A stretch of 64,000 nt of DNA from positions 31,467,501 through 31,531,500 of the forward strand of contig NC_088930.1 in the NCBI RefSeq assembly GCF_038396675.1, given 5' to 3'. The notes beneath the pieces are model-generated. The model was not told where the DNA came from, did no database searches, and saw only the letters and a program-made list of their open reading frames with translations. Both the position numbers and the translations under genes were made by a program. Source of the stretch: Hydra vulgaris. Lineage: Eukaryota > Cnidaria > Hydrozoa > Anthoathecata > Hydridae. Positions 14,126-63,919 of the stretch are shown in pieces. Every line of letters starts with the position of its first letter. Position 1 is the first letter of the stretch.

Positions 14126-14131
14126 GATATT
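14126..14131. repeat. 6-bp target site duplication, left (GATATT)
   Basis: GATATT immediately precedes the element's first base and is repeated at 52668-52673 immediately after its last base. A 6-bp duplication is the Polinton/Maverick hallmark. Confidence 0.88.
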
Positions 14132-14684
14132 TGATGAGATGTATTAATCGGTTTTTATTTTTTTCTTCATTATTATCATGAAAATTGCGCCCTAAGAACG
14201 TGATTGGTTGTAATGGTTCTCACATGACCGAAAAGGTGAGGTGGACTGACCAAAAAGGTGAGGGCGTTAAATGGGAAAAGGTAGGGCGTCAAGGGGTGTA
14301 ACAAGTTACAAGTGGTGACATGGTGACATGGTGACAAGTGGTGACAAGTGGTGACATGGTAACAAGTGGTGACATGGCGACAAGTGACATGATGACATGG
14401 TGACATGGTGACAAGTGACAAGTGGTGACATGGTGACAAGTGTTGACATGGTGACAAGTGACATGGTGATAAGTGAAAATGACGTATGCGTGACAGGGTC
14501 ATTCTTGTCACAGTGTGCATGTTGTGACATGGTGATTTATAAAAAAATAAAAAAAATTGCGTTTATATTATTGAATTTATTAAAAAAAAAACAACGGTTT
14601 ATAATCTCGATAGGGTCGTTTGCCATAAATTAAGCGGTTAAAAAAGAAAAAAAAAATGTTTTTATATTATTTCTTCACAGTTGT
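14132..14684. repeat. Left terminal inverted repeat of the Polinton
   Basis: Nearly identical in reverse complement to 52143-52667. The outer 170 bp are unique. Next comes a minisatellite (14308-14480) of GTGACATG and GTGACAAG words, then about 150 bp of AT-rich unique sequence. The left copy has more minisatellite units than the right, which explains most of the length difference. Open frames inside it (Thr/Cys/His-rich) are repeat artefacts. Confidence 0.93.
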
Positions 14685-14938
14685 AAGATAATTCAGAACT
14701 GAGCGCTTCTTCTGCAATAAAATCTTTTTCTTTTTGTGTCAATGATGGCGAATAATTTGGCATTTTTATTCTAATCTAAAAAAAATATTTTTAAACGGGT
14801 TATTCTTTAAGGAAAAAAATTTTCAAGTTTATAAATTTGAATCTGTTAATAAAAAGGTGTTGAAAAAATGGTATAAAAAAAAACGCAAGAAAACGATAAA
14901 AATAATCGATAAAAACTCGGCATTGACATTATTTTTAG

Positions 14939-15719: not shown

Positions 15720-16463
15720 TTATACAAAATATTCGTAAATTATTTTATGATTAAGAAAATAATTTGCATTTATAAATTCGTATTGATTTTTTAACCAATA
15801 AATAGTTTTTAAAATAATATTAAATATATTGTCAAGATATTTTTTGCATTGGTTAACCAAACAAGGTTTAAAATTTATTTCTGCAAAAATACAACTAAAA
15901 ATACTTTGAAGTCCTTTTATTAAAGCTTTTTGTATAATAAAAAAAGACAAATCTGTAGAAGTTCTCCATAGCCAATACGGTCCGCGAGTATAGCTTAAAT
16001 TTTTTATAAATATTCTATGTGTCCTATATTCAGAAAAACCATATTCGTCATGAAATCTCCGCAAGATTTTGTCAAAATTAAATTTGAAATTGACCAAAAT
16101 AGATTCAATTTCATCCATGACTGCTTCCATTTTATTTTTTAACTTTTTTATTGATAATTTTCTTAAACAGAGTTGTTTTAATGACAAATCAATTTCTCCA
16201 TTGGGGTAACATTTTATTTCTTTCATGATTTGATCGTAAATGTCAATATTAAACCAAATTCTTGTGTTTTGTGCCACCTCTTTTAAATAGTAAGAATAAG
16301 GAATAAACTTGTTTTCTCGTTTTGCTTTTTTCCGTTTAATTATTTCTTCCCAGACTATATTTTCTTCTAAATCTCGATGAAAAACACAAAAAAAATCAAC
16401 ATTAGGTTCTTCATAATTTTCCGTGTCACCAATTTCTTGAGTGTATTTTTTAATGTTTTTCAT
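15720..16463 (-). CDS. Hypothetical protein, accessory family A (247 aa)
   Basis: An open frame starting at the first ATG after a TTTTTCAG acceptor (AG at 16466-16465). It is rich in Lys, Ile and aromatics and probably helical. Its C-terminal 40 residues (ILKTIYWLKNQYEF region) align with those of the next gene upstream (TLKTIEWFTDQYNF), so the two are diverged tandem duplicates. No known domain is seen. It is the second-last gene of the leftward TRAF/DED block and is likely an accessory or host-interaction gene. Confidence 0.7.
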   Translation of the reverse strand: MKNIKKYTQEIGDTENYEEPNVDFFCVFHRDLEENIVWEEIIKRKKAKRENKFIPYSYYLKEVAQNTRIWFNIDIYDQIMKEIKCYPNGEIDLSLKQLCLRKLSIKKLKNKMEAVMDEIESILVNFKFNFDKILRRFHDEYGFSEYRTHRIFIKNLSYTRGPYWLWRTSTDLSFFIIQKALIKGLQSIFSCIFAEINFKPCLVNQCKKYLDNIFNIILKTIYWLKNQYEFINANYFLNHKIIYEYFV

Positions 16464-16489: not shown

Positions 16490-17185
16490 TTAAAGATAAT
16501 CGAGTATACTATTATTACAAATAAATTTTTCATAAATGACAAAGTTATATTGATCGGTAAACCATTCAATAGTTTTTAAAGTAATTTTAAAAAAATGGTG
16601 CAGATAATCTTTATTCAAGTGATAATATTTTTTTTTTGAATATTCAGTTTCATAATATACTTGTGCAAATAAATAAACTAAGTTTATTAAAACATTATGC
16701 TGCAAAATAAAAAATTTTAAATGAGGTTTTATAAACTTGTCCAAGTTTTTTGTTGATACTTTATCAGTTTTTAGTATATATTTGGCAACTTTTTTTTTCA
16801 TCGAATTTTCTTTTCTTTTTTCGAGGTAGTAAAGAAGAGTTTTTTTATCAAAATATTTTTCGAGAACACAAAGTACATTTTGAGTTAAATTTGTCATTTC
16901 TTTTTTTATTCGAATAAATACCATTTTGCGTTTACATAAATCTAATAAAGAAAGTATCGGTTTGTCGGTATAAAGTTCTTGAAACGTGCGAGAAAGATTA
17001 TCTTTACCAAGCCATATCTGAGCTTTATTAATAAACATTTTAGTGTAGTATGTGTATCGTCTCAGCTCTGGATTAAATGAACTATGTTCTCCATTTTCCC
17101 TTATCATTCGAGGACGTTTGTGTTTGATAACAAATAAATTGCTGCTGTATTTTCTTTTAAGAGTCTTCCTTTCTTTCTCCGTCAT
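16490..17185 (-). CDS. Hypothetical protein, accessory family A paralogue (231 aa)
   Basis: An intact frame paralogous to the 247-aa gene: both end with a Y-L-x-x-x-F-x-I-x-L-K-T-I-x-W-x-x-x-Q-Y-x-F pattern and share a Leu/Lys-rich middle. The N-terminus is basic (KRKYSSNLFVIKHKRPRM), possibly a nuclear localisation signal. Unlike its neighbours it has no clear poly-T/AG acceptor before the ATG. Function unknown. Confidence 0.7.
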   Translation of the reverse strand: MTEKERKTLKRKYSSNLFVIKHKRPRMIRENGEHSSFNPELRRYTYYTKMFINKAQIWLGKDNLSRTFQELYTDKPILSLLDLCKRKMVFIRIKKEMTNLTQNVLCVLEKYFDKKTLLYYLEKRKENSMKKKVAKYILKTDKVSTKNLDKFIKPHLKFFILQHNVLINLVYLFAQVYYETEYSKKKYYHLNKDYLHHFFKITLKTIEWFTDQYNFVIYEKFICNNSILDYL

Positions 17186-17458: not shown

Positions 17459-17872
17459 TCATTTGCTATAAATATTTAAAAGTTCTTTTTGTTTTGCAAC
17501 CACAACTTCGACCGGATAATTGCTTTTGTTTGGTTGTCCGTCAATTATCGCTGCTTTTGGCGTCTGACCATTTGATAAATTTATGCAGTCTTCATATGTT
17601 GGCAATTGAGGAATTTTCTTCTTATATTTTATATATAAATCCGTTCTTCCGATTATTGCTAACATTTCTAATAAAAGATTGAATTTGCTTTCAGGTGATA
17701 TGAATTCTTTGTTGTCGTGATAAATGGAATATGTGTTAAAGTGTTCCATTAAATCAATGCCATCTTTTATTTGTTCCTTCAAACGGAGCGGTATAGATAG
17801 ACAAAATTTTAAACTACGTGTGTTGTCACTCGTAAGATGATCTGCAAGTTCTCTGAAATATTTTTCAATCAT
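17459..17872 (-). CDS. Death effector domain (DED) protein, FLIP/FADD-like
   Basis: I start at 17872 because TTCTTTAG (AG at 17882-17881) lies 8 nt upstream; the frame also extends to 17908. The first 80 of 137 residues show the six-helix DED pattern: FRELADHL, then SLKFCLSIP, then an EQIKDGIDLMEHF helix, then LLLEMLAIIGRTDLYIKY. The last carries the R-x-D-L motif of DEDs. DEDs join death receptors and adaptors to caspase-8; DED-only viral proteins can block that. The C-terminal 55 residues are unassigned. It lies directly beside the TRAF-like gene. Fold assignment is by motif only; the anti-apoptotic role is inferred. Confidence 0.72.
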   Translation of the reverse strand: MIEKYFRELADHLTSDNTRSLKFCLSIPLRLKEQIKDGIDLMEHFNTYSIYHDNKEFISPESKFNLLLEMLAIIGRTDLYIKYKKKIPQLPTYEDCINLSNGQTPKAAIIDGQPNKSNYPVEVVVAKQKELLNIYSK

Positions 17873-17935
17873 TTTTTTTGCTAAAGAATAAAAAAGTTTT
17901 AATATCAATTATTTAATACATTTAAAAAAAAATAT

Positions 17936-19019
17936 TTAAATGTGATTTTCAATAGACACATTAATATACAGCATGTTGTTTACAATAAAATTTTTCAAAT
18001 GTTCGTGATTTATAAATTCTGTATATCCGATAGCCGGATTATATTCATGAACAGGTTGGTAAAAGTATCGACAATATCCGGCATTTTCAAGTTGACCTTG
18101 GTTATAATTACCAAATGATATTTCCTTTTTCATTTCGTGAACATTATTTCGCAGAGTAACAATAACTCTTCTTTTAAACGGCCATTTTAAAACGTGATCA
18201 TGTGGAGATTGTAAAAGTTGAAAGTAAATGGCCATTTTTTTTTCAGCAATTTCGTACCCATACATTTTTATTCGATAAAAATAACCGTCTGTGGTGTAAG
18301 CAGGGTCGGAATAAAACGGTTCATTGGACAGTAATCTGAGATCCATTTGGTCACATTTGATAATTTGATTATCAGTGATTGGAAAATTTTCTTTTGATAT
18401 TTTCATATCGCAAACAAGAGATTTTGAATTTGCAATTTCTTCATTTTTTTCGTTTATCAAATTTGTCAAGTTTTCTGTTGAGCTTTTGACATGATTTTCA
18501 AATTCTTTATTTTTGCAAGTGACCAAACTTGTCAGTTGAGCAATTTGTTAGTTTGAATTAGAAAGTGAAAGCATACAGTTATTGATTATTTTGTTAAAGA
18601 CATTTGTGTTTGATTTTATGGTTTCGTTTATATTTTCAGATGCCTTTATTATTAATCTTTCTTCTAAATGTGATAAACAATCTGTGACATGGTTTGCCAT
18701 TATTTCAGTTGGTATTTGATGGACGCATAAAAAACACAAAAAGGTGCTTGGTTGAATTTCTTCATATCGGCATTCGTGCGTTTCTAAATTATTTACATTG
18801 ATTCCACAGCAAAAGCAAGAAGTCGAATTAATTTTTTCCAAACAGTTTTGTTGATGATCAAGCAGGTTCTCGATATTTTGCAACATTCCACAATAACAGC
18901 AGCATATTTTTTCAGTGTTTTTGCGACTAAAGAATTAATTTATGAGCCCATTTTTGAAAAAGAAAATACAAAAAAAAAACATTTTTTAAAAACAAAACTT
19001 ACTTGATTAACGGTTCCAT
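17936..19019 (-). pseudogene. TRAF-like protein (zinc fingers, coiled coil, MATH/TRAF-C domain), one in-frame stop
   Basis: Two exons are seen. A 17-nt first exon (19019-19003) starts with ATG and ends at a perfect GTAAGT donor. A 76-nt intron ends in TTCTTTAG. Exon 2 runs 18926-17936. Frame is kept across the junction, which brings in the first zinc-ligand cysteines. Zinc fingers (CFCCGINVNNLETHEC, FLCFLCVHQI...H...C) lead to a Lys/Glu coiled coil and a TRAF-C/MATH domain (SDPAYTTDGYFYRIKMYGY, then VLKWPFKRRVIVTL). One TAA (18550-18548) interrupts it between fingers and coiled coil. TATATAAG at 19080-19073 is a likely promoter. TRAFs link TNF-type receptors to NF-kB. Capture from a host is inferred. 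Confidence 0.82.
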
Positions 19020-19384
19020 TTTTTTTAATTGAAAATTTCAAGTGTGAAATATTTTTTTTTCTAAACTTTAAACTTATATAAAAAAAGTAAATATTTATTA
19101 AACAAGTGTGAAACGACAAAATTAAATGATCGGATTAAAATAAAAAACGACAGTAAACTGTAAAAACAAATTTAAAGAGAAAATGATTTTCATTGATAAA
19201 ATTCTGAGAAAATATTAAAGGTATTTTTGGAAAAAAAAAAATTTAGAAAGATTTTTCCGAGAAAATTTACAAAATTTTATTAATAATCTATTAATTATTA
19301 ATTATCAACTTTAATAATCAACGCGTTTAAATTGCTTATAAACAGTTCGTCGCGTTCAAGACGGTTTTTTCATCGTTTAGCCAT
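19020..19384. other. Spacer upstream of the TRAF-like gene
   Basis: AT-rich, with a TATATAAG box on the minus strand at 19080-19073. No coding frame is supported before the GC-rich insertion. Confidence 0.5.
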
Positions 19385-19906
19385 GACCCCGGGGTCAGGG
19401 GGGCCCATTTTTTGGCCCCCTTGACCCCAGGGATCGGGGTACGGGGTCAAAACCCAGCTAAGAACCTTCTCCCCCTCGAGGACTACCCTCATGCCAAATT
19501 TCATCGAGATCGGTCTGGCGGTTTGGATTTCTATAGAGAACAAACAAACAAACACACACAAACACACATTGCCCTTTATATATATAGCTGGAGTTACCCG
19601 GCGTTGCTCGGGCCAATATTTAAACTGGCTTACCTGATATCTGTACACAAAAATGGGCCCAAAAATGGGCCTAAAAAATCGGCCCAAAAAATGGTCCCCC
19701 CTGACCCCGGGGTCAGGGGGGCCCATTTTTTGGCCCCCTTGACCCCGGGGATCGGGGTACGGGGTCAAAACCCAGCTAAGAACCTTCTCCCACTCGAGGA
19801 CTACCCCCATGCCAAATTTCATCGAGATCGGTCCGGCGGTTTGGATTTCTATAGAGAACAAACAAACAAACACACACACACACATTGCCTTTTATATATA
19901 TAGAAG
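19385..19906. mobile_element. GC-rich tandem retroelement-like insertion (possibly Penelope-like)
   Basis: One full 318-bp unit (19589-19906) is preceded by a 5'-truncated copy (19385-19588). Both end TTTATATATATAG after a CA/AAC-rich stretch and contain CAAATTTCATCGAGATCGGT, a phrase common in dispersed invertebrate retroelement tails. A full copy behind a truncated tandem copy fits Penelope-like insertions, but no coding domain is present. It lies between the TRAF-like gene and the next Polinton gene. Open frames here are artefacts of the repeat. Confidence 0.6.
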
Positions 19907-26912: not shown

Positions 26913-27845
26913 TTATGAGTGAAAGACAATTTTCAACTCTTCCTTGTTTGCAATATTTCTTTCTTTATGCTTCAAGTAATCGTAAAGTTTGTCGTCTTTC
27001 TTGTAAAGAATAGCAGATATTGTAAAATTTCTTTTTAAAAAATAAAACCAGTTTGCTTGCGGAAACAATTCAATTGGCGAATTGCGGTAAAAATTACATT
27101 GATTAATAGCTTTGTAAATTAAAACTTTATCTTGCACTATTTTGTATTTTTCAGTTTTTGAAAAATAATCATAAATGCGAATAGGCGTGTATATAGTATA
27201 ATAACCATTGTGAAAGAGTTTGTCATTAAAACTAAAACGGGTATAATTGGCTTGAAGAGTAAACTTTGAAGGTATGTACTTTTTTCGCAATTCTTTATAA
27301 TCGCGGTAATGGTTATTCAAATAATCGCCATGATTATTAATCAAATAAGGAAACAAAAAGTAATATTTGAGAGAAAGTTTGAATTTGTTTTTCCACGTGT
27401 TAAACGAAGCTCGATTAAAGTATTTAAAATTTGCAATAAATTCATCCAGCTTATCTTTGTACAATTTATATATCGGGTGTGTTGATTCCTTTTTGATAAT
27501 TTCTAAAAAAGTTTCATTTATTAGAGCGCAAACTTGATACATTTCCCGAGTCCAATCAAGCGTTTGTTCTTCAAATGACATGCATTCTCTAAAAGATTTT
27601 GCAAACAAGTCCATATTGTTATTATTATCTTTCATTATAAAAACATGATAAAGAACCGAATATTGTTCCTCGGGTAAATTTAATTGAAGATTCCATTTTG
27701 TTAAATATTCTTTTATAATATTAAGCCAATCTTCATACGTGTGATCCAAATGATGAAATTCTTGAAGTATAGGATGAAGTTCATTATTTGGATAAAACAG
27801 TTGTAACGCTTTCTCTACAGATTGATCGACTTGCTTGCTCGTCAT
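26913..27845 (-). CDS. Hypothetical protein (310 aa)
   Basis: An intact, long frame rich in Tyr, Phe, Asn and Lys, predicted mostly helical, with no signal peptide or known motif. A TATAAATAC box on the minus strand at 27890-27881 lies about 40 bp upstream, so it probably has its own promoter. Its length and intactness in a decayed element suggest real coding. Function unknown. Confidence 0.7.
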   Translation of the reverse strand: MTSKQVDQSVEKALQLFYPNNELHPILQEFHHLDHTYEDWLNIIKEYLTKWNLQLNLPEEQYSVLYHVFIMKDNNNNMDLFAKSFRECMSFEEQTLDWTREMYQVCALINETFLEIIKKESTHPIYKLYKDKLDEFIANFKYFNRASFNTWKNKFKLSLKYYFLFPYLINNHGDYLNNHYRDYKELRKKYIPSKFTLQANYTRFSFNDKLFHNGYYTIYTPIRIYDYFSKTEKYKIVQDKVLIYKAINQCNFYRNSPIELFPQANWFYFLKRNFTISAILYKKDDKLYDYLKHKERNIANKEELKIVFHS

Positions 27846-37400: not shown

Positions 37401-39026
37401 GGCGCGTTGGTACATTGCAAAATTGCGATGGACCCTGCATATCAAGAAAAAGTAGGAGGTTTTTCTCCTATGGTTGAAAAAGATTGTATTCCGTTGGAAA
37501 ATTATTCTCCGACAGAAATAATGGCAAAACGTTACTTGAAAGCAAACGGGTGTTACGGCATCGAAGAAGACAAAACTCTTAAATTATTACTGAAATTAGG
37601 TCCGCACGAAACATGCGAATTTTTAGACACCTTAATATGGTTAACAAAATCTTGCGGTTGCAAAATTTTAGAAATTTATAAAGTTTTACCTCTATGGAGT
37701 ATCCTCTTGCTCGAGACATGGTAAGGCAAAATATAGAACAAAGAAAAGAAGCTGTTAAAAATAATGATAAAGTCAAAGACGCCATTTCAAAATTAATGAC
37801 AAATGGCCACTATGGTACTTTGTCAAAACAAATAATAACGAAATTAAATGTGGATTTTATTAGTTCACGAAGAAAAAGTTTTACAAGATTTAATAAATAA
37901 TATACATGAAATTAGAAAAGTTTTACTAGTTAAAGGATTTTCAGATCAAGCTATTAAAAGTTTGCTGCCTCTTCATATTCAAAATTTATTATACAATGAA
38001 GAAAATTTTAACAATATAGAATCAAATCGTTATAAATTGGATATTTTAAAAAAAAAAATTTTAATTGACCGATACGAAACTGAAGATTATACTTATGACA
38101 ATTATTTTAGAGATTTGTTAATCATTTCAAGCACAAATTACAACACAAAATGCATCTTGATGTTAAATAACAACGGAGAAATAGGAGATTTATTCGATCT
38201 AATAAAATCTGACGATGATTCGATAAAATCATCTCTAATTATAAAATCGTCAGATAAATGCAACATGAAAAACAAATCATTAAGAATTGTCGCTTCACAA
38301 ATTTTATCTTTTGCCAAACTCAATGTCGGTCGTTTTAGCTGGGATCTTGGAGAAGCTTTGCGGAAACACGGAGCAGAAAAACATTTAGTTATAACAGATA
38401 CAGACTCTGGCTGCTTTTTTATTACTCAAAAAAAAGACGAAGAAGAAAAAACTTTTTTTCGACACAAAGTCGAAGAATGGTTAAACAACTCGAAAATTGG
38501 ACAAAAATGGATGGAATATTCAAATTTTCCAAAAGAATACCCCTATTATTCGACAGAATATGCAAAAGAAAGCGATCATTTTCAAAACGAAATTTCGCCA
38601 CCACAGTTTATAGTTCAAACATTTGCTTTAGGGCCAAAATGCTACAGTGTTCATTCTGTTAACGAAAATATGGAAAATAAGCATAAAAACCGTGCAAAAG
38701 GAGTGCCAAATTATAAATTAGTGCCATCTAATTATATAAACGCGTACAATACATATCAAGTAGAAAAATATTTTAGAAATTTACCAGATCAACTTGATAA
38801 CGAAATTCAACCTATTCAACAAAATAGAATGTCTGTCAATTTTAAAAGCATTAGTATAAATCAACACACCATTAGTTTTCTAAAAAAATTTACTCAAAAA
38901 AACTACGTTTTTGATGATGGTATACTTACCGAAATTCGAGACTGTCATACCCTCTATCCCATTGTTGATGCAAATCTAAAAGTTTTACCCGACATTAAAA
39001 AATTTGGTAGTGATGAACATATTTAA
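34432..39026 (+). pseudogene. Protein-primed-type family B DNA polymerase (PolB), broken
   Basis: Exonuclease motif I YDCETA near 35075 and motif II HNASFDNRIM near 36370. Between them are zinc/HNH-like pieces CSICRLP and DHDHFTGETYGLAHDFCN, characteristic of Polinton polymerases. Polymerase motif A SMDENGQYGG (37258), motif B KLMTNGHYG (37790), motif C TDTDSGCFF (38395). Damage: TGA at 34567, frameshifts near 34960, 37690 and 37850. It would replicate the element using a terminal protein as primer. The upstream Lys-rich frame may belong to it. Confidence 0.92.
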
Positions 39027-40120: not shown

Positions 40121-40200
40121 CTTTTTTTGTACTATATTATAAATTGACTTGAAATAAAAATGATTCAAAAAAAAAAAGTTTTTTTGTTTAACAAAAAAAA

Positions 40201-41100
40201 ATGGACAAGGAGACAGAAACTAAAATATCAAACACTCTAAATCAAGGTTCGAAAACGTTGACAGAAATTTTGAAAAAAAAAGGTTTTGACAGTTTTCAAA
40301 TTAGAGGAAAATCCAAAGAGCCAAATTGTCCAAATGAAGCTCCAAAGTTTAACATTTTTAAACCATGCAAAGATGTCTATTCTGAAAATACAATTATAAC
40401 TGGACCGACTAATAGCGGAAAATCGACCATGGCTCGCGATTTAATTCACTTAGGAAAATATCCTGATGCAGAAATGGTATTTCTAATTCAAATGAGAGAA
40501 CCGAGCGAAGCACAGCACAAAATATGGCTAAACATTATAAATTCCCCCAAAAATAATTTACAAGCCTATGATATTTTAACAGTCGACGGTCCTGAAAAGT
40601 TGGACGAAATTGTTCAACGCGTTATCGGTTTTTCCAAAGACAAATTTGGAATTCAAAATAGTGACTACCGTTTATTAAAAACAATATTATTTTTTGACGA
40701 CATTAGCATTTTTTGTTTAAATAGTCAACAATATGTAAGCGCGTGCACGAGCGGATCACATCACGGTGTTGGAACGATAACAATTTTTCATTCGGTTCCT
40801 TTTAAACAAAGTTCGTCTTTGGATAATTTATTATCGCATTATAAATGCATCATCACCTTTGATAATAACAACGAAATTGAAAAAATATTTAAAAACGATT
40901 TTCCATCGTGTGGAAAAATGAATCACGCAATAAGTGATATATTAAATAAAGAAACATCCAAACCTCTCGGTCATTTAGCTTTATTTAAAAAAAATTGCTC
41001 TTTTGCAAGATTGAGAACTAATATTACTAACATTAAAGAACAAAAAGTATTTATTCCGGTCGATATTCAGGGTCAATTAGATTTGACTATGACGGAGTGA
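40201..41100 (+). CDS. A32/FtsK-HerA-type genome-packaging ATPase
   Basis: An intact 299-residue frame. Walker A is ITGPTNSGKST (residues 66-76), Walker B ILFFDDIS near residue 161. The arrangement is that of Polinton and NCLDV packaging ATPases, which pump DNA into preformed capsids. It opens the structural half of the element. No poly-T/AG acceptor is seen before its start, unlike the early-type genes. A 50-bp inverted repeat begins inside its last codons. Confidence 0.92.
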   Translation: MDKETETKISNTLNQGSKTLTEILKKKGFDSFQIRGKSKEPNCPNEAPKFNIFKPCKDVYSENTIITGPTNSGKSTMARDLIHLGKYPDAEMVFLIQMREPSEAQHKIWLNIINSPKNNLQAYDILTVDGPEKLDEIVQRVIGFSKDKFGIQNSDYRLLKTILFFDDISIFCLNSQQYVSACTSGSHHGVGTITIFHSVPFKQSSSLDNLLSHYKCIITFDNNNEIEKIFKNDFPSCGKMNHAISDILNKETSKPLGHLALFKKNCSFARLRTNITNIKEQKVFIPVDIQGQLDLTMTE

Positions 41101-52032: not shown

Positions 52033-52142
52033 TTTGGATCTTTTAAATTTATCACACAGAGATTTAAAAATACGCGCTATCGTGCGAAACACTATTCTGA
52101 TACTTTTCTTTTGAGAATCGAACCTTTTTTGACTATTTCTTT

Positions 52143-52667
52143 CAACTGTAAAGAAATAATATAAAAACATTTTTTTTTCTTTTTTAACCGCTTAATATAT
52201 GGCAAACGACCCTATCGAGATTATAAACCGTTGTTTTTTTTTTAATAAATTCAATAATATAAACGCAATTTTTTTTATTCTTTTATAAATTACCATGTCA
52301 CAACATGCACACTGTGACAAGAATGACCCTGTCACGCATGCGTCATTTTCACTTATCACCATGTCACTTGTCACCATGTCACCACTTGTCACTTGTCACC
52401 ATGTCACCATGTCATCATGTCACTTGTCGCCATTTCACCACTTGTCACCATGTCACCACTTGTCACCACTTGTCACCATGTCACCACTTGTAACTTGTTA
52501 CACCCCTTGACGCCCTACCTTTTCCCATTTAACGCCCTCACCTTTTTGGTCAGTCCACCTCACCTTTTCGGTCATGTGAGAACCATTACAACCAATCACG
52601 TTCTTAGGGCGCAATTTTCATGATAATAATGAAGAAAAAAATAAAAACTGATTAATACATCTCATCA
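52143..52667. repeat. Right terminal inverted repeat of the Polinton
   Basis: Reverse complement of 14132-14684 with scattered differences and fewer GTGAC-type minisatellite units (about 52330-52495). Ends CATCTCATCA directly before the GATATT duplication. Confidence 0.93.
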
Positions 52668-52673
52668 GATATT
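52668..52673. repeat. 6-bp target site duplication, right (GATATT)
   Basis: Second copy of the duplication at 14126-14131. Confidence 0.88.
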
Positions 52674-62451: not shown

Positions 62452-63919
62452 TTAATTTTTTTTTCCAGAAGCTTCCGTCCCAATCGATATTTTTGATGCC
62501 GCTTTTCGTGCGTCATTTGCAATACCAACTCTACCTGAAAGATTCGATTTCTTTTTTTTGATAGGAGGTAGCATGTCGAAGTAAATTTTGTTTGTTTGGC
62601 AAATAGCACGATATCTTTTTTTTTCATGTTCGATAACTAACCCGTGATCTTTACATGTACTTTCTTCACAGTCTTTTAATGGGGTTTGTAGCCTTTCCTC
62701 TAGTTGATCAAATACTTCTTGAGACTCAATTAAGTAAGTCAATGACTTTATTTGATTTAGCAATTCGCGGCAAATAGAAGCTTTACCTTGTTTTGGATAA
62801 CTTTTGATAGGTATATTAGATAGTTGAGATGGATCATCTACAGGACATGGTTCTTTAACCGACATACTTTTAACTATACGCGGTTTCATTACATCAAAGT
62901 CCAAGTTTAAAAAAACAGAGTTCTTGTATTGTGTACCAAACGAATCCCAAGATATTTTATATTTTGTAGTCACAGCGAGCATATGTTTACACGGAAGTAA
63001 GTTTTTTTTCCAATCAAAGCAACTACAACTTGGCATTCGCAATTCATCACCAAAAAAAACTTCATAAATATTATTATTTTTTTCACTCTTCACTTTAAAA
63101 ACTACACCATCTTTATAAATCAAATTGCTTGCTATGAATTTTGATGAATCCAATTTCTCAATACAGTGGGCAACAAACTTTTTGGGTCGGTTATGTAGCC
63201 AAGAAGACAGACTTTGTTGGTAGGAACGGTAATAACCAGACGCTTTAAAATTAGATTCAACATAACTAAAAAATTAGTTTTATAGTTATAAGCTATTTAT
63301 ATGCACACAAACACACACACACATATACGTGTGTGTCAAAACAGCAACACTAAAATATACCTGTTATACTTATCAGGTAAAAATTGCTCCACAAGAACCG
63401 TAATCATTCCACTTAAACATTTATCATGAAATTTACTTAAGTAGCCATATTTAAATTCTTTATTCTTACTTTCCACTCCATTATTTGCATTAACTGCAAC
63501 TTCAAGCAAACCCAGTCGATAGTAACATACCCAGAGCTAATTAAAGAAAATACATATATTAAAATTTATTAAAATGCACTTATCTTTTGCATTAATACAA
63601 TTGACAAAAATTACAGTATAAGTTTTGCTTAAAACTATTTCTCAATACCTCTGAGTAATAAAATTATTCTATTGTACCTGGTGTACTGGAAACCAAGTTT
63701 TGTCGAGCCAATTTCGAAAATTCTTGGAACTATCACTTTTCCAAACCTCACTCGCTTTTAACTCTCTAACATGTTCTTCATATAGATCATGTGTTTCAGA
63801 TGATGTAATCTTTCTTAGCACAACCAAAATTGTTTCTCTTTTATCTCGTAGTCCATTATTATGAGCAGATAACCATTGAACCCATGCTTGCTCCCGGTGG
63901 AAATCGCATAATAAAAGAT
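62452..63919 (-). CDS. SWIM zinc-finger protein (MULE-transposase-derived type), 3' exons
   Basis: Three exons on the minus strand are joined by consensus GT/AG introns: 63919-63678, 63536-63361 and 63265-62452 (stop 62454-62452). Frame is kept at both junctions. The last exon holds the SWIM finger CSCFDWKKNLLPCKHML (CxC...CxH) and a downstream helical part ending in a Lys-rich nuclear-type signal (PPIKKKKSNL). The upstream exon (HREQAWVQWLSAHNNGLRDK) has the look of the segment after a MULE DDE domain. The gene continues past the right edge. Open frames with introns suggest a live host gene derived from a transposase. Confidence 0.75.

Follow-up and report, generated by a model that had tools for sequence, protein, structure and literature searches.

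The window considered here is a 64,000-nucleotide stretch of the Hydra vulgaris genome, and within it lies a large mobile element, apparently of the Polinton type, in which two leftward genes stand side by side: one encodes a TRAF-like protein and the other a small protein with a death effector domain (DED). Both domains occur in fixed order and with fixed spacing at more than 100 places in the genome, promoter- and acceptor-like signals accompany them, and both genes are under purifying selection; the pair is an old, stable module. Animal cells rely on proteins of both kinds in choosing between death and alarm, and look-alikes of them in virus-like elements scattered through the Hydra genome suggest interference with host cell-death signalling. 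On balance, we lean toward an accessory module of two genes, conserved in the Polinton-type elements of Hydra, that blunts host death and alarm signalling of the TRAF and FADD/caspase-8 types. A sequence-only reading of the window had already placed the two genes next to each other, in leftward orientation, within a Polinton of a cnidarian host, and its coordinates hold. The parts of the pair are these:

19003..19019, minus strand: putative first exon of the TRAF-like gene, an ATG followed by a GTAAGT donor, read from the sequence
18551..18926, minus strand: N-terminal part of the TRAF-like gene, with three C2HC modules (Cys/His pattern; no Pfam zf-TRAF match) and the start of the putative coiled-coil region
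18548..18550, minus strand: in-frame stop, TAA, interrupting the TRAF-like gene of the window; the frame is open in other copies
17936..18547, minus strand: C-terminal part of the TRAF-like gene, with the end of the putative coiled-coil region and the MATH/TRAF-C domain (PF21355, E 1.2e-14; TRAF chains in PDB)
17459..17872, minus strand: DED gene, with one death effector domain (residues 6-84) and some 50 further residues that form a conserved tail (Pfam, sub-threshold; profile match to host DEDs)

The TRAF-like gene spans about 19019 to 17936 on the minus strand and combines three C2HC finger modules, a putative coiled-coil region and a MATH/TRAF-C domain; an acceptor AG at 18927-18928 preserves the frame from the putative first exon into the rest of the gene. 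The identity of the MATH domain is certain. The open reading frame (ORF) at 17936-18526 on the minus strand scores 55.2 bits against PF21355 (E 1.2e-14) and 50.4 bits against MATH_2, both above the Pfam cut-off, its closest relative in PDB is a TRAF chain (7ypc, E 7.9e-9), and PF21355 is matched in 13 of 13 aligned element copies. This alignment represents 13 of 19 distinct intact frames; two further frames (21 in all), which start inside the finger region, were omitted. A profile match to TRAF3 in PDB (8zuk) covers positions 85-351, taking in the putative coiled-coil (TRAF-N) region. In the window, the fingers and the MATH domain are encoded in one frame, parted by the TAA; other copies have an open frame of about 332 amino acids, within a span of roughly 300-394. 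The sole TRAF relative found in the protein database (416 candidates), a protein 98% identical to another element copy, carries the NCBI name "TNF receptor-associated factor 4-like [Hydra vulgaris]". The motifs quoted in the sequence-only reading, including WPFKRRVIV, are present in the sequence.

The TRAF-type zinc fingers of that reading are Cys/His modules. The three have the patterns Cx2Cx11Hx3C, Cx2Cx9HxC and Cx2Cx11Hx3C, and their cysteines and histidines are identical in all 13 aligned copies; no Pfam zf-TRAF model matches them, either in the window or in the aligned copies. Genome-wide there are 56 zf-TRAF hits, none of which lies less than 3 kb from any of the 176 places where an element TRAF was found, the nearest being about 41 kb away. 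Most of these hits are on contig C8, with others on contigs that include C15, away from the element TRAFs, and they represent a host expansion. Pfam scans revealed no RING family, and a RING-like pattern was found upstream of the TRAF in 0 of 78 loci, some places being counted repeatedly. An N-terminal RING is also absent from TRAF1.

As for the second gene, the DED (PF01335, residues 6-84) is the sole Pfam family at E<=10, with 32.2 bits and E 1.3e-7, and it is matched at E<=0.1 in 19 of 21 diverse copies, each scanned alone. A profile built from 21 copies aligns to six Hydra host DEDs with an hhalign probability of 91.7% (E 7.8e-7, score 38.3); among 200 column shuffles none reaches this score (best 18.7), and the reversed profile gives 13.1. 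These comparisons support homology of the element DED to recognised DEDs. Of 44 distinct DED proteins, 40 have the motif RxD[LI], which reads R76-x-D78-L in the window. The DED of the earlier reading, with its closing R-x-D-L, is supported by family and profile, at a Pfam score under the curated cut-off. Copies that are 100% identical occur at other places in the genome. No relative was found in the protein database with the DED (4 candidates) or its profile (564 candidates), and IMG/VR, searched with the TRAF and DED profiles, gave none among 25 and 250 pattern stretches. The Pfam DED scan of the genome returned 136 hits, with element copies among them at 26-32 bits. Contigs C1, C2 and C14 hold a concentration of numerous host-like hits, at 36-59 bits, which suggests a large host DED expansion.

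How widespread is the pair? The only host genome covered was that of H. vulgaris (911.5 Mb, 15 contigs). Places were pooled from searches with the MATH and DED queries of the window and with the proteins of a second subfamily, plus a few MATH places from a Pfam scan; the best 119-150 candidates were scored, so that every count is a minimum, and a place without its partner may reflect a loss in the search. The merged listing holds at least 176 TRAF places and at least 189 DED places. At 137 of the 176 TRAF places listed, a DED lies directly downstream on the same strand, with a gap of 67-462 nt (median 109). In the first, smaller lists, 102 of 144 TRAF places were paired with a DED, versus a chance expectation of 0.04. 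The pair thus recurs at 137 or more places and, since these lie in related elements, it is not a host insertion absent from other copies. Sequence work covered 40 of the 102 first-pass pairs together with automatically cut loci; the remaining pairs were treated by coordinates only.

Both genes carry the mark of purifying selection. Ratios of nonsynonymous to synonymous substitution (dN/dS) were taken from sequence pairs with dS of 0.1-1.2 (102 of 210 for TRAF, 583 of 946 for DED), and their medians are 0.31 for TRAF and 0.285 for DED; with a lower dS limit of 0.03, the TRAF median becomes 0.33. Pooled independent pairs give 0.38 for TRAF (bootstrap 0.32-0.42) and 0.40 for DED (0.33-0.46), and the MATH part alone gives 0.46 (0.28-0.54). 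Across subfamilies, the MATH and DED sequences are about 35-50% identical, the two genes diverging by about 60%, and an ATPase that serves as marker of the elements about 63-74%. Recent spread is also suggested by eleven DED hits on several contigs that are equal in score, length and identity. In a tree of 21 rows, in which only seven host MATH exons are represented and long-branch joins are a warned-of risk, the twelve MATH domains from elements group in a single clade (95/99), which has a long stem and stands apart from the seven host domains. The best host identity to an element MATH, among these seven exons, is about 34%. Repeated recent capture from host TRAFs is unsupported, given the single clade and this low identity.

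The element around the pair is 38.5 kb long and is bounded by terminal inverted repeats of about 540-566 bp, 93.3% identical over 566 columns. Its landmarks are the following:

14127..14692, plus strand: left terminal inverted repeat (repeat-to-repeat alignment, 93.3%)
52135..52672, minus strand: right terminal inverted repeat (repeat-to-repeat alignment, 93.3%)
40192..41100, plus strand: ATPase-like ORF, the element marker (Pfam 17.9 and 17.7 bits, both sub-threshold; 130 genome places listed)

Inside it are encoded a dUTPase (62.9 bits) and, above the Pfam cut-off, pieces of a PIF1-type helicase and an endonuclease VII domain. The match to an integrase is weak (rve, 16.3 bits, E 0.012, against a Pfam cut-off of 32.6). 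PolB has no match in Pfam or PDB; a DTDS motif, of the kind known from PolB, can be made out by eye at 37848-39026. No capsid protein was matched among the element ORFs in Pfam or PHROGs, and comparison of these ORFs with a phage collection and PHROGs yielded only endonuclease VII and a single, weak match to an ATPase. No 6-bp target-site duplication was seen at the repeat edges, and the real edges are perhaps eroded or elsewhere. The copy in the window is degraded; its helicase, for example, is divided between two frames. The label of Polinton given in the sequence-only reading is kept for the terminal repeats, the gene block and the weak core-enzyme matches of this degraded copy, and it rests on architecture and kinship because PolB and capsid are unmatched in Pfam and the target-site duplication was not seen.

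The pair travels with this marker. A TRAF or DED lies within 45 kb of 101 of the 130 ATPase places listed (2.9 expected), on the opposite strand in 99 of the 101 and at a median distance of 26 kb. The converse is weaker, with a listed ATPase within 45 kb of 74 of the 137 pairs, because the lists hold the best candidates only. Most pairs (119 of 137) fall outside the subfamily of the window, and a neighbouring gene provides a contrast:

16490..17185, minus strand: neighbour gene, function unknown, restricted to the subfamily of the window

This gene is near 18 of the 19 TRAF places of that subfamily and 0 of the 157 others, with one stray place besides; hence, the pair has been retained where the neighbour has not, or where the neighbour has diverged past recognition. 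Together with a second minus-strand gene of unknown function at 15720-16463, to which it is weakly similar (about 27%), it adjoins the DED gene. Other subfamilies have an additional MATH gene that stands alone, encodes about 185 amino acids (PF21355, E 1.2e-18) and lies some 13 kb from the TRAF:

L104:92-646 and L105:3-527 (loci of other Hydra elements, outside the window), opposite strand to TRAF: stand-alone MATH gene, PF21355

A TRAF or DED lies within 20 kb of the stand-alone gene at 101 of 150 listed places, 96 of them with the opposite strand (1.5 expected). The gene is near 0 of the 12 window-subfamily copies checked, and none occurs in the window. Outside the element, an ORF at 62452-63153 encodes a SWIM zinc finger (33.2 bits, above cut-off), perhaps belonging to another transposon.

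Another point concerns how the two genes would be expressed, for which the window offers two candidate signals:

19073..19080, minus strand: TATATAAG, a TATA-like box ahead of the TRAF-like gene, from sequence
17881..17896, minus strand: T-rich tract ending in AG, putative (trans-)splice acceptor upstream of the DED start codon, from sequence

Of 16 distinct TRAF starts, 15 are preceded by a TATA-like box at a distance of 20-75 nt; for DED starts the figure is 14 of 48, and for control ATGs 805 of 7,923 (10.2%). The 16 TRAF contexts are mutually related and all come from outside the subfamily of the window. All 16 TRAF starts and 37 of 51 DED starts, some mis-assigned ATGs being included among the latter, have a T-rich tract with AG in the 25 nt before them, versus 590 of 7,980 control ATGs (7.4%). 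At the TRAF gene, a TATA box and an initiator behind it may account for this site instead of an acceptor. The simplest reading of the signals is one transcription unit, from which the DED mRNA would be released by spliced-leader trans-splicing. This process has been demonstrated experimentally for a Hydra operon, where the acceptor likewise follows a T-rich stretch (PMC3273482). A scan for bacterial-type promoters stayed at chance level. T-rich tracts with AG also precede the ATG of element genes at the window starts 29063, 29803, 30345 and 16463, and TATAAA-like boxes stand instead at 27845 and 28718; the element looks as if it were laid out in trans-spliced units. Just upstream of the TRAF promoter, at 19370-19900, is a two-copy GC-rich repeat (common stretch CCGATCTCGATGAAATTTGGC), perhaps a nested insertion.

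Viral TRAFs, viral DED proteins and a TRAF-C domain in a planarian retroelement are known separately. ORF111L of the fish megalocytivirus ISKNV resembles the element TRAF in being virus-encoded, in its size (296 amino acids), in its coiled coil, which is putative in the element TRAF, and in its C-terminal MATH domain; it differs in its N-terminal RING, in coming from a fish iridovirus and in inducing caspase-8 apoptosis, and the available passages of its description mention no DED partner (PMC3352826). The viral FLIPs, such as MC159 and KSHV vFLIP, share with the element DED the RxDL motif, the lack of a caspase domain and ties to TRAF pathways (PMC4558505, PMC5963799, PMC9163697). MC159 has two DEDs, whereas the element protein has one, with a motif-bearing tail and a TRAF mimic next to it; FADD and PEA-15 also have one DED each (PMC4558505). 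Unlike that class, the element protein has no death domain (Pfam, E<=10) and its tail motifs are different. The planarian element, likewise large and mobile, is a giant Gypsy-like retroelement with MATH_TRAF_C, BIR and BCL2-like motifs; it is a long terminal repeat retrotransposon, and the available passages mention no DED (PMC6431247). Polintons, Mavericks and adintoviruses belong to the same class as the Hydra element, with a Hydra Polinton, P1-HM, on record and accessory regions with diverse ORFs described in vertebrate Mavericks; in the available text of these accounts, unlike in the Hydra element, no TRAF or DED gene was found by term (PMC4028283, PMC8097293, PMC11071308). The sequence-only reading knew of no such pair in a Polinton, and the top-ranked titles from a search of the open-licence PMC literature likewise included none, which shows its absence only weakly. 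An adintovirus paper is said to report accessory genes in animal Polintons, and parts of the module may already be in print.

What would such a pair do? In the mechanism that we favour, it would act during replication of the element, when a TATA-headed unit would first yield a RING-less TRAF mimic and then, probably via read-through and spliced-leader trans-splicing, the small DED protein with its motif-bearing tail, and host signalling of the TRAF and FADD/caspase-8 types would be disturbed. TRAF-C domains bind peptides of receptor tails and adaptors; the mimic would occupy such TRAF-binding peptides or enter TRAF trimers, bringing no ubiquitin-ligase activity, and the DED protein would join or cap the DED assemblies of the host. 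Signalling for death or alarm would thereby be blunted. We infer expression, trans-splicing, binding partners and the direction of the effect. Blocking is the leading reading because RING-less TRAFs are classically dominant negative, a single DED could join or cap DED assemblies, and cnidarians have DED caspases. The source for these caspases also shows that, in Nematostella, caspase-8 and TRAF3-like genes rise upon exposure to double-stranded RNA (PMC11251625); RxDL is critical in MC159 (PMC4558505).

Several observations weigh against blunting by the pair. The DED score lies under the curated Pfam cut-off (32.2 versus 35.9 bits), unrelated chains outrank caspase-8 when PDB is searched with the DED profile, and, where host DEDs have the acidic partner of RxDL, all 21 element copies in the alignment have Asn. 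Among the places listed, 39 TRAFs and 52 DEDs lack a partner, and neither gene accompanies 29 of the ATPases; in the window itself the TRAF is interrupted. Finally, the only experimentally studied viral TRAF that was found, ORF111L, promotes caspase-8 apoptosis (PMC3352826).

This last point leads to the opposite direction of effect, namely, that the pair activates, nucleating caspase-8 or NF-kB-type complexes to bring about timed death for release, or survival signals. Besides ORF111L, KSHV vFLIP gives this idea a precedent, for it switches on the IKK complex (PMC9163697). However, ORF111L bears an N-terminal RING (PMC3352826) and none was found in the element TRAF; in addition, a lone DED that, by the Pfam scan, has no caspase domain brings no enzyme. 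We consider activation rather unlikely.

The conserved tail of the DED protein raises another question. Its motifs were counted in distinct proteins: LP[ST]Y in 44 of 44, AKQ in 44 of 44, YP[SAV] in 42 of 44 and PPxY in 32 of 44; in shuffled tails, LP[ST]Y occurs in 0.5% and PPxY in 7.7%. These motifs could serve for binding of WW domains or for docking onto the partner MATH. In the window (17459-17600), LP[ST]Y and YP[SAV] resemble late-domain motifs, as does the PPxY of other subfamilies, and motifs of this kind are known to act as late domains. From this would follow a role in ubiquitin or membrane trafficking, for example in egress, with the tail recruiting WW-domain ligases by LPxY/PPxY, the MATH domain as a generic adaptor and death signalling not the target. 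This we hold to be improbable: PPxY is missing from 9 of 9 DED proteins of the window's subfamily, the counts are not independent because the copies are related, and the DED itself is left unexplained. Docking onto the partner would instead make the pair a self-contained viral adaptor, in which the tail would be the ligand of the partner MATH and would bridge FADD/caspase-8 DED assemblies to TRAF trimers, short-circuiting both death-receptor arms. All 35 tails from other subfamilies than that of the window fit the TRAF2-type consensus [PSAT]x[QE]E, but none of the 9 from the window's own does, and 31% of shuffled tails do; we offer the idea as a long shot.

Could the host have retained the two genes to its own advantage, perhaps to resist later infection by elements or viruses? 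One copy is annotated by NCBI as a host gene and many copies still have open frames, yet the genes follow the elements genome-wide, many copies are broken, and the element lineage alone can account for the selection signal, which makes this very unlikely. As for functionless passenger genes from one insertion, large transposons do capture host genes (PMC6431247), but recurrence at 137 or more paired places across subfamilies at about 35-50% protein identity, with dN/dS of about 0.3 and no close paralogue among seven MATH exons of the host, of which the nearest reaches about 34% identity, rules them out for practical purposes.

These elements are a matter of caution for annotation, which may count their genes as host TRAFs and so inflate cnidarian TRAF inventories, one of them being already named TRAF4-like by NCBI. 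Hydra is a tractable animal, and the effects of Polintons on their hosts become testable in it. A cnidarian here holds a heritable, multi-copy record of virus-like elements with TRAF and DED mimics, and the contest over extrinsic cell death would date to early animal evolution.
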